Assembly (NCBI RefSeq): GCF_000166135.1
Contig: NC_014666.1
Span: 5,084,001-5,148,000, forward strand
Direction: 5' to 3'
Source: Pseudofrankia inefficax
Lineage (GTDB): Bacteria > Actinomycetota > Actinomycetes > Frankiales > Frankiaceae
Length of the DNA: 64,000 nucleotides
Made by a program: the position numbers and the translations under genes. This document shows, piece after piece, positions 47,649 through 51,927 of this stretch (position 1 is its first letter; each line of letters opens with the position of its first letter). The notes beneath the pieces were generated by a model that worked only from the letters and a program-made list of their open reading frames with translations, searched no databases and was not told the origin of the DNA.

Positions 47649-48398
47649 CTACGGAGCGTGGATCACCCGCACGTCCAGGGCGCGCACGGTCGGGTTGTCC
47701 GGGCTCGCGTCGGTGATGATCCCGGCGACGTCGGCCAGGGGCAGCACGGCGAACCGGGACGCCGCGCCGATCTTCTCGGAGCTCGCCAGCACATAGGTGT
47801 CCGCGGCCTGGCGGGCCAGCGCGCGCTTCATCGCGGCCTCGTCCGCGTCACCGGTGGTCAGCCCGACCTCGGGGTGCACGCCGGTCACGCCGAGCAGGAA
47901 CAGGTCGGCGTGCAGGCCGCGCGCGGCCTCCACGGCGGCGGCACCGCAGGCGACCATCGAGTGCTTGAACAGTCGACCGCCGATCAGATAGACCTCGACG
48001 TCCTGGTGGCCGACCAGCGCGCTCGCCACGGTCGGGCTGTGCGTCACGACCGTCGCCCGCAGGTCGAGGGGCAGCGCGCGCACCACGGCCAACGCCGTCG
48101 TGCCACCGTCGAGAATGGCCGTGCTGCCCGGTTCGATCAGCGCCGCCGCCGCGACGGCCACGCGCTGCTTGCCGGAGACCTCGACCTCCTGGCGCCCGAC
48201 GTAGTCGACGATCGCGGCGGAGACGGGCAGCGCACCGCCGTAGACCCGCTGACACAGTCCGGCCGCCGCGAGGTCACGCAGGTCGCGGCGGATGCTGTCC
48301 TCCGACAGGCCGAGCTCGGCGGCCAGGTCCTTGGCGACGATCCGGCCGTCCGTGCGCAGGCGCCCGAGGAGAAGATCGCGGCGTTGAGCAGCAAGCAT
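47649..48398 (-). CDS. DeoR/GlpR family transcriptional regulator
   Basis: 249 residues from the ATG of MLAAQRRDLLLGRL. The N-terminal winged helix-turn-helix is RIVAKDLAAELGLSEDSIRRDLRDLAAAGL, followed by RVYGGALP, the DeoR hallmark. The C-terminal effector domain (DeoRC) contains LDGGTTALAVVRALP and YLIGGRLFKHSMVACG, which binds sugar phosphates in characterised members. It is divergent from a small deoxyribosyltransferase-like gene with 49 bases between, so it probably controls that gene and itself. Confidence 0.95.
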   Translation of the reverse strand: MLAAQRRDLLLGRLRTDGRIVAKDLAAELGLSEDSIRRDLRDLAAAGLCQRVYGGALPVSAAIVDYVGRQEVEVSGKQRVAVAAAALIEPGSTAILDGGTTALAVVRALPLDLRATVVTHSPTVASALVGHQDVEVYLIGGRLFKHSMVACGAAAVEAARGLHADLFLLGVTGVHPEVGLTTGDADEAAMKRALARQAADTYVLASSEKIGAASRFAVLPLADVAGIITDASPDNPTVRALDVRVIHAP

Positions 48399-48406
48399 GC
48401 ACGTTT

Positions 48407-48432
48407 TCCCTTGTTCTTGCCGAGTTCTGCAC
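48407..48432. promoter_or_regulatory. Possible DeoR binding repeats
   Basis: On the minus strand GCAGAAC and GCAAGAAC occur as direct repeats about ten bases apart in the 49-base divergent interval. DeoR-family operators are often direct repeats of this kind. Confidence 0.4.
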
Positions 48433-48447
48433 GATACTGTCGGCACC

Positions 48448-48810
48448 ATGCTGATTCTTATCGCAGGGCCCTACCGCTCCGGCACCGGCGACGATCCCGA
48501 GGCGATGGCCCGCAACCTGGCTCGCCTGGAGGAGGCCGCCTGGCCGATCTTCCGCAGCGGCCACGTCCCGATGATCGGAGAGTGGGTCGCGCTGCCCGTG
48601 CTGCGCGGCGCGGGCGCCACCGGCCCGACCGACCCGGTCGCCGAACAGGTCATGTACCCCACCGCGCAACGTCTGCTCCAGCACTGCGGCGCCGTGCTGC
48701 GCCTGCCCGGCGAGTCCACCGGCGCCGATCAGGACGTCCGGATCGCCCAGGACCGAGGCCTGCCCGTCTACCGCCGCGTCGAGGACATCCCCGGCTACGA
48801 GGCCGCCTAG
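48448..48810 (+). CDS. Nucleoside 2-deoxyribosyltransferase-like (DUF4406) protein
   Basis: 120 residues. MLILIAGPYRSGTGDDPEAMARN is the P-loop-like start of the nucleoside 2-deoxyribosyltransferase/DUF4406 fold, and GESTGADQDVRIAQDRGLPVYRRVEDIP fits the substrate-binding glutamate/ADQDVR segment. Such proteins transfer or hydrolyse deoxyribose from nucleosides or nucleotides, but this branch is uncharacterised. The divergent DeoR regulator, which classically senses deoxyribose or sugar phosphates, supports a nucleoside or sugar role. Confidence 0.85.
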   Translation: MLILIAGPYRSGTGDDPEAMARNLARLEEAAWPIFRSGHVPMIGEWVALPVLRGAGATGPTDPVAEQVMYPTAQRLLQHCGAVLRLPGESTGADQDVRIAQDRGLPVYRRVEDIPGYEAA

Positions 48811-48983: not shown

Positions 48984-49727
48984 CTACGCGGACGGCGGCG
49001 CGTCGCCGCGGAAGCCGACCAGGCGCGCCATGGCCCGGGTGGTCTGTTCGAAGACGGCGTCGGGATCGTTGATGGCGTTGGCCATCTGGCCGAACGACTC
49101 AAGGCTGATGAACCCGAACAGCTGCGACCAGGCGGCCACCGCCCGCAGCAGCACCTCGACAGGAAGGTCGCCGAGATCGAGAGTCCCGGCGAGACGACGA
49201 AGGTCGTCCTCGGCCCGGCCGGCGCGCCGGAGCGACCAGTCGGGAGACGTCTGCTCGTCCCGCGGCCGGACGACCTGGCCGGCACGCCAGCCGGCGCCGA
49301 CGATGAGGGCCAGGCGGGTGACCACGCGCGCGGCGGGGCCCGTCGTGTCCCGCGGCGCGCGGTAACCCGGTACGGGCGAGCCGTACAGCAGTGCGTACTC
49401 GTGCGGATGCTCGGCGGCCCACTCGCGTACCGCGCCGCACACGGCGTGCCATCGCGAAAGGAACGCGCTCGGCGGCACCGCGTCGTCGGCCTGCTCCGCG
49501 CGGGCGCCGAGCGCGTCGTACGCCTCGATGATCAGAACGGTAAGCAGCTCATCGCGACTCGGGAAGTACCGGTAGACGGCGGACGAGGTCATGCCAAGCT
49601 CGCGTGCCACTGCGCGCAATGACAGTGCCGCCGCCCCGCTGGTGGCGAGGTGGCGCCGCGCCGTCTCCTTGATCTGCCTCGTCAGCTCGGCTCGCGCGAG
49701 CTCGCGGGCGGTCTGGGTCGCCGTCAT
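48984..49727 (-). CDS. TetR/AcrR family transcriptional regulator
   Basis: 247 residues from MTATQTARELARAELTRQIKETARR. The helix-turn-helix is AAALSLRAVARELGMTSSAVYRYFPSRDELLT, and the C-terminal half matches the WHG (TetR_C_13-like) ligand domain: FLSRWHAVCGAVREWAAEHPHEYALLYGSPVPGY. It is divergent from a deazaflavin nitroreductase gene; three copies of a GAGCA-N-TGCTC type palindrome lie in the interval, so it very likely represses that gene and itself. Confidence 0.94.
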   Translation of the reverse strand: MTATQTARELARAELTRQIKETARRHLATSGAAALSLRAVARELGMTSSAVYRYFPSRDELLTVLIIEAYDALGARAEQADDAVPPSAFLSRWHAVCGAVREWAAEHPHEYALLYGSPVPGYRAPRDTTGPAARVVTRLALIVGAGWRAGQVVRPRDEQTSPDWSLRRAGRAEDDLRRLAGTLDLGDLPVEVLLRAVAAWSQLFGFISLESFGQMANAINDPDAVFEQTTRAMARLVGFRGDAPPSA

Positions 49728-49769
49728 CTCAGCAGTGTGACACGTCCCGAGATCAGTGCACCGATAGGT

Positions 49770-49845
49770 GAGCACTGCTCTTGACTCGGCGGCCGCGCGC
49801 AGCCAGACTTCAAGAGAGCACTGCTCACATATCAGAGCAGCGCTC
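49770..49845. promoter_or_regulatory. Three copies of a TetR-type operator
   Basis: GAGCACTGCTC at 49770-49780 and 49816-49826, and GAGCAGCGCTC at 49835-49845, each flanked by TGA/TCA (TGAGC...GCTCA). The second and third copies are 19 bases apart, centre to centre, the first 46 bases from the second. They occupy the 158-base divergent interval between the TetR and nitroreductase genes. Confidence 0.82.
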
Positions 49846-49885
49846 ACAGTACTGGCTCGCCACCGAACGCGTGGACAGGAGAATC

Positions 49886-50952: not shown

Positions 50953-51927
50953 GTGAGCGCTTTCCGCCGTGTGGTCGCCTACGCACCCCAGGGCGTGACC
51001 GGGCTGAGTATTGGCCTGGTGACCGGAGTCTTCGCCCCCAGCGGGGTCTTTGACCTGCGTCCTGGCCTGCCCGTTTTCGACATGACCATCTGCGCCCGTC
51101 AGCCCGGGATCCTGCGGACCGACAGCGGCCTGGCCCTCCAGGTCGACCACGGCCTCGACGCGCTCACCGCGGCAGAACTGATCATGGTGCTGCCGGGGAC
51201 GGGGTTCCGCGAGGACCGGACCGACCACGTGGTGGAGGCGCTGCGCGCCGCCCACCGGCGCGGGGCGATCGTGGCCGGCCACTGCGTCGGCTCGTTCCTG
51301 CTGGCCGCCGCCGGCCTGCTCGACGGGCTGGACGCGACCACCCACTGGCAGTACGCGGACGAGATGGCCGCCACCTACCCCAAGGTCACGATCCGCCGAG
51401 ACGCGCTGTACATCGACCACGGCCAGGTCTCCACCGGGGCCGGGGCGACGGCCGGGATGGACCTGAGCCTGCACCTGCTGCGGGCCCACCACGGCGCCGC
51501 GGTAGCCAACCGGATCGCCCGCGACCTGGTCACCCCGCCGCACCGGGCCGGCGGCCAGGCCCAGTACCTCGACGCCCCGGTGCCTTCCGGTGAGGGCGAC
51601 GACCGCCTGGACGAGGTGCTTGCCTGGGCCCGGGACAACCTGGGCCAGCGCCCCACGGTGGACCAGCTCGCCGCCCGCGCCATGACGAGCCGCCGGACCT
51701 TCCTGCGCCGGTTCAGGCAGGCGACCGGCACGTCACCGAACGCCTGGCTGACCAACCAACGCCTCAACCAGGCCGAGGAACTCCTCGAGACCACCGACCT
51801 GCCCATCGAGCACATCGCTCACCACGTCGGCTACACCAGCAGCGCCGCCCTGCGCGACCAGTTCGTCCAGCGCCGTGGGGTGCCACCCCGGGAGTATCGC
51901 CGCACCTTCCTCGGACGTCAGCCGTAG
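50953..51927 (+). CDS. GlxA-type AraC family transcriptional regulator
   Basis: 324 residues. The N-terminal half is a DJ-1/PfpI-like domain, with VAGHCVGSFLLAAAGLLDG containing the nucleophile-elbow cysteine and THWQYADEMAATYP. The C-terminal half is the double helix-turn-helix AraC domain: RPTVDQLAARAMTSRRTFLRRFRQATGTSPNAWL, then LPIEHIAHHVGYTSSAALRDQFVQRRGVPPREYRRTF. These regulators often activate aldehyde or amine metabolism. No partner gene is obvious next to it. Confidence 0.94.
   Translation: MSAFRRVVAYAPQGVTGLSIGLVTGVFAPSGVFDLRPGLPVFDMTICARQPGILRTDSGLALQVDHGLDALTAAELIMVLPGTGFREDRTDHVVEALRAAHRRGAIVAGHCVGSFLLAAAGLLDGLDATTHWQYADEMAATYPKVTIRRDALYIDHGQVSTGAGATAGMDLSLHLLRAHHGAAVANRIARDLVTPPHRAGGQAQYLDAPVPSGEGDDRLDEVLAWARDNLGQRPTVDQLAARAMTSRRTFLRRFRQATGTSPNAWLTNQRLNQAEELLETTDLPIEHIAHHVGYTSSAALRDQFVQRRGVPPREYRRTFLGRQP

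Follow-up and report, generated by a model that had tools for sequence, protein, structure and literature searches.

The tetR-reductase interval and its surroundings

The stretch of DNA analysed here, hereafter the window, comprises 64,000 nt of Pseudofrankia inefficax (NC_014666.1, 5,084,001-5,148,000, forward strand), and includes two divergent genes whose start codons are separated by 158 bp (49728-49885; Table 1). The leftward gene encodes a protein with the N-terminal TetR_N helix-turn-helix (PF00440, E 4.2e-11) and the helical C-terminal domain (PF13305, E 2.1e-25) of TetR-family regulators, and its AF2 model is almost all-helical (pLDDT 87.8, 12 sequences). The closest solved structures in Foldseek alignments are Rv1816 (5d1r; best match, E 2.2e-13, 39% identity), which phmmer aligns over residues 8-236, and SCO4313 (2oi8; 33% identity). 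A longer open reading frame for this protein from GTG 49847 was rejected in favor of ATG 49727, because ortholog alignments begin at the latter. By sequence score the product of the rightward gene is a member of an F420-type family, exceeding the curated cut-offs of both PF04075 (E 1.9e-9; 38.2 bits against 22) and TIGR00026 (50.1 bits against 46.35). Its match in the PDB, an F420-H2 dependent reductase (3h96), is weak (E 0.0044), and its F420 dependence is putative.

As the preliminary description of this DNA had stated, the interval contains three near-identical GAGCA-N-TGCTC palindromes (O1-O3), two of which are 19 bp apart; start to start, O1 and O2 are separated by 46 bp and O2 and O3 by 19 bp. 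They take up the middle of the interval rather than filling it, as had been claimed. No other site within one mismatch of GAGCANTGCTC occurs in the 64-kb window, and of 300 windows simulated with a first-order Markov model, averaging 2.44 sites each, none contained a triple within 76 bp or a pair at 19 bp; the arrangement is beyond chance. Two weaker copies, absent from the preliminary description, prolong the series toward tetR: a phased site with two mismatches, and a degraded copy that, judged by eye against the alignment, stands in the place of a GCACACTGCTC site in many Streptomyces orthologs.

Table 1. Genes, candidate operators and predicted promoter elements (window positions).
Feature	Position	Strand	Remarks
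TetR-family repressor, 247 aa	48984..49727	-	ATG at 49727; PF00440 and PF13305 (TetR_C_33)
Degraded site	49730-49740	.	read by eye; overlaps predicted tetR -10
tetR -10, CACACT	49734-49739	-	predicted; 6 nt before ATG
Weak phased site	49751-49761	.	GATCAGTGCAC, 2 mismatches; exactly 19 bp from O1, tetR side
O1	49770-49780	.	GAGCACTGCTC; abuts predicted -35 of reductase promoter
Reductase -35, TTGACT	49781-49786	+	predicted; touches O1
Reductase -10, CAGACT	49804-49809	+	predicted; 17-nt spacer
O2	49816-49826	.	GAGCACTGCTC; sits at predicted transcription start of reductase gene
O3	49835-49845	.	GAGCAGCGCTC; one mismatch to GAGCANTGCTC; 19 bp after O2
F420H2-dependent quinone reductase / nitroreductase-family gene, 164 aa	49886..50380	+	PF04075, TIGR00026

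Flanking genes include a DeoR-family regulator (PF00455; 47649-48449, minus strand) in head-to-head overlap with a short open reading frame (48397-48807, plus strand) for which no Pfam or NCBIfam match was found; one of these two starts probably lies further in. Downstream of the reductase gene, 50953-51927 encodes an FtrA-like AraC regulator with a DJ-1/PfpI domain (NF006902 at E 1e-92, short of its cut-off).

Conservation of the sites and the promoter layout

Related loci were collected in two sets: 63 loci from a scan of genome contigs, nearly all of them Streptomyces, and a more diverse set of 29 loci from a class-wide search plus 40 more, picked for diversity. Within the window's own family the only match at E 1e-45 among 35 genomes is its own, and because the 34 other family genomes lack one, either acquisition of the tetR-reductase pair by transfer or its widespread loss is probable; the position of the window's TetR in the tree is unsupported. 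Three of seven other genomes in the genus contain a relative of 34-37% identity at E 1e-30, the upstream regions of which lack the sites. None stand upstream of the more distant paralogs L010, L011, L012 and L072. Across the class sample, a match at E 1e-42 is present in at least 112 of 393 genomes (43 of 137 genera), a lower bound with up to seven candidates scored per genome.

Absence of the palindromes from relatives was named by the preliminary description as fatal to its reading, and is not what we find. After L071-L075 (weak or partial matches) and one identical upstream end were dropped, 127 non-redundant upstream regions remained, the window included; a site with at most one mismatch is present in 123 of these and at least two such sites in 112, as opposed to none of 127 in-gene controls. 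Allowing two mismatches, all 127 regions contain at least one site, 122 at least two and 77 at least three, with 10 of 127 controls positive. The four regions devoid of a GAGCA-type site at one mismatch are L044, L100, L133 and L149, three of which carry a GAACA-type variant instead.

A simple sigma-70 scan of the interval found no promoter, and the boxes in Table 1 were identified by comparison with relatives. In 120 of the 127 regions TTG comes immediately after a site (up to two mismatches), read on the target strand, a somewhat favorable count in that any site with TTG after it qualified. A NAnnnT box lies downstream of this TTG in 115 of the 120, at 17 nt in 67 and 18 nt in 48 and most commonly as CACACT (46), a count also somewhat favorable since offsets of 16-19 were allowed. 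A -10-like box occurs within 22 nt of the tetR start in 83 of 127 regions; a more distant upstream stretch of equal size contains one in two of the 127. The window's tetR -10 is so near the ATG that a leaderless transcript is predicted; the corresponding -35, GGTGCA, is weak. For the reductase gene the expected transcription start is the first base of O2, and this comparison supports a layout in which O1-O3 frame its predicted promoter.

In many relatives (L085-L110) in which the strong sites are separated by 34/35 bp, the second operator overlaps the predicted target -10, often as GAGCAATGCTC on the tetR strand, and the -10 reads GAGCAT in 27 regions. An operator placed over the -10 in this way is a different means by which the same predicted promoter would be blocked.

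Recognition helix, target genes and possible inducer

The preliminary description proposed a search for the motif elsewhere, and in the whole 8.8-Mb genome a degenerate 19-bp double-site pattern at one mismatch or fewer is confined to the tetR-reductase interval. A wider regulon was sought among the perfect GAGCANTGCTC sites listed in the genome and none was found: the others listed (1783080, 4213962, 6366645, 6559521) stand alone, except that 6559521 has a partner 36 bp away at 6559485. Lattice pairs with two or three mismatches are numerous (64 matches forward and 59 reverse in all; a reversed control gave 34 and 32) and are taken as mostly chance. If the palindromes were read by some regulator other than the adjacent TetR, it would be difficult to see why the pattern is unique in the genome at one mismatch, why it accompanies this tetR beside different target genes and why it covaries with the TetR recognition helix; we consider such a regulator very improbable.

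The covariation concerns residue 48, which in the AF2 model opens helix 48-54, the second (recognition) helix of the helix-turn-helix; the matching positions of Tn10 TetR contact operator bases. We classed 153 proteins by operator, after dropping L071 as well as L156 and L166, which duplicate L133 and L149. All 137 proteins with GAGCA-type operators have Ser48, whereas the 13 with GAACA-type operators have Pro48 (seven), Ala48 (five) or, in L044, Ser48 combined with Thr50, residue 50 being alanine everywhere else. Three proteins with tied operator class (L119 and L150, Ser48; L158, Ala48) were left out of the operator counts. The GAACA cases are not independent draws, because most were obtained by searching the very genus and family in which we had first noticed the variant. 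On a quick tree of 108 of the 153 rows (45 thinned, helix columns excluded), operator class changes three times on the best topology and at least twice on supported branches, that is, in some two to three evolutionary events. When residues 48 and 50 are both considered, the helix follows operator class in each of the two supported pairs; with residue 48 by itself it does so in one, and with such numbers a sign test has no power and cannot reach significance. Several other columns track class as well, as clades would; judged by mutual information, position 97 does so slightly better than 48. The covariation thus supports, from few evolutionary events, binding of the palindromes by the adjacent TetR. 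Together with conservation among orthologs, it makes a good case for the operator role assigned to the palindromes in the preliminary description.

The gene divergent from tetR is not always a reductase. Using tblastn with the window's reductase and two epimerase-like proteins, we classed the divergent gene in the fetched flanks of 152 orthologous loci as F420-type in 64, NAD-dependent-epimerase-like in 80 (as in L086; PF01370, E 3.4e-18) and neither in eight, with divergent orientation in 64 of 64 and 80 of 80, respectively. In some of the 80 epimerase-like loci (e.g. L102) a DUF2568 gene is nearest. Classing by longest open reading frame was abandoned, wrong frames being long in GC-rich DNA. 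The regulator and its operators are therefore not tied to the reductase, and with this division of the loci the identity of the target enzyme says little about the inducer.

This bears on the earlier suggestion of a nitro or quinone sensor, and on the idea that the compound sensed might also be a substrate of the reductase. The gene does belong to an F420H2-dependent quinone reductase family, and in divergent TetR-target pairs the ligand of the regulator and the substrate of the enzyme are often the same. However, more than half of the orthologs lie beside an epimerase-like gene instead, and fatty acids are said to bind Rv1816: a review, as far as it is drawn on here, describes binding of lauric and palmitic acid, loss of DNA binding with palmitic acid, and binding of the protein to mmpL regions (PMC6463170). 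The suggestion is unsupported by these observations, and a nitro or quinone inducer seems unlikely.

Site spacing, proposed repression and known systems

When sites with up to two mismatches are counted, two of them lie 19 bp apart in 32 of 58 first-scan regions, 30 of 82 diverse GAGCA regions and 10 of 13 GAACA-type regions (L044 is counted in both the first-scan and GAACA sets); position shuffles of 60 regions over 200 rounds yielded no pair at 19 bp, against 57 observed. Strong pairs (at most one mismatch) are 52/53 bp apart in 51 of the 58 first-scan regions (26 and 25), and outside that set often 34/35, 48/49 or 52/53 bp. The window's 46 bp between O1 and O2 is rare, being found elsewhere only in L173 (at most one mismatch) and L148 (at most two); by our reading of the alignment the 6-bp shortfall from 52 lies between the -10 and O2. 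At 19 bp to the tetR side of the -35-proximal site, mainly a single half-site, TGCTC, is retained, with a mean match of 4.53 of 5 positions in 43 first-scan and window regions and 4.06 of 5 in 51 from the diverse set. Measured from the -35-proximal site, the start of tetR in 57 first-scan regions lies at 52-54 in 43, 71 in three and 90 or 92 in six, the remaining five being 94, 95, 113, 143 and 150. These distances are largely steps of one 19-bp unit, and some annotated starts may be off.

The longest ladders before tetR are found in L048 and L049, with six or seven sites (up to two mismatches), and in L070, where half-sites are repeated with the same TCGTTTCG linker.

We hypothesize, with considerable confidence, that O1-O3 are operators of the adjacent TetR and that a single autorepressor silences both genes until it is released by a ligand. 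The operator role and autorepression are very likely; cooperative binding, read from the recurrence of the 19-bp step, is likely; release by a ligand is presumed. On the reductase side, dimers at O1, O2 and O3 would occupy the start site together with the upstream margin of the -35 and the first part of the transcribed region, while the weaker phased site next to O1 would place the same protein over the tetR promoter; both genes would thus be repressed together, and a ligand would free both promoters from TetR. With its three strong sites the interval has more than one dimer-sized site, as in a multi-dimer operator, and the two TetR dimers of the preliminary description give way to three strong sites and weaker ones besides. 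Its proposal that TetR controls a deazaflavin nitroreductase holds insofar as the sites frame the predicted promoter of that gene; repression itself is what we infer from this layout.

Neighboring dimers 19 bp apart would be separated by about 1.8 helical turns, probably near enough for contact, and binding at a strong site should therefore help to fill an adjacent weak half-site. Alternatively, the same repressor may bind each operator independently, the 19-bp step being inherited promoter geometry or the product of slippage of a repeat unit. The distance between strong sites does vary among relatives, the number of strong sites is just two in many members (separated by 52/53 or 34/35 bp), and 52 of the 82 diverse GAGCA regions lack a 19-bp pair at two mismatches. 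The step nonetheless recurs between differing linkers and in GAACA-type arrays of changed site sequence, which retain steps of 19 and 33/34 bp, and the site-to-tetR-start distances move in the same increment in all but five of 57 regions. We regard independent binding as somewhat unlikely.

Cooperative occupancy can be extended to a more speculative proposal, which we find possible, although short of probable: that this subfamily, which is widespread in actinobacteria, forms a short repressor filament, nucleating on the strong palindromes that adjoin the -35 or lie close to the -10 or start and spreading in fixed 19-bp steps over degenerate half-sites. Species would then tune repression by gain or loss of whole units, and a change at residue 48 (or 50) would switch the operator from GAGCA to GAACA with the step kept. 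The locus looks like a mostly ordinary gene switch, and its interest lies in the stepped arrangement of several sites. Natural operator arrays in the subfamily range from two to about seven sites on a recurrent step and combine two classes of operator and two main targets with one promoter layout; as such they form a natural series in which to study repressor cooperativity against site number and phase, and the evolution of TetR operator specificity. The window itself gains a testable assignment of regulator, operators and promoter for an F420-type enzyme.

Among the open-access papers listed by the literature searches, none described in its title or abstract this operator, this gene pair or a fixed-step array with varying unit number, which speaks only weakly for their absence; PMC4482099 presents the motifs of mycobacterial TetR proteins as logos in image form. 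Triple operators for a divergent TetR, and binding of multiple dimers, are already known, and the window adds a further case. One close system is SCO7222/SCO7223 of Streptomyces, in which a TetR-family protein and its divergent target are likewise separated by three near-identical palindromes (TGGAACGNCGTTCCA) that yield three EMSA complexes (PMC3511530); its operator sequence is different, however, and the portion of that report used here mentions neither a fixed 19-bp ladder nor variation in unit number. EthR of M. tuberculosis is also a TetR-family repressor bound as multiple dimers, an octamer cooperative across a 55-bp operator according to the passages of PMC9210681 cited here, but it recognizes other direct and inverted repeats, whereas the present sites are discrete 11-bp palindromes on a 19-bp step for which we infer cooperativity. 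In the compound operators of QacR, CgmR and RolR, as outlined in the same passages (PMC9210681), two TetR-type dimers share a single element of 28-32 bp; here, by contrast, separate phased sites extend across the promoter region.
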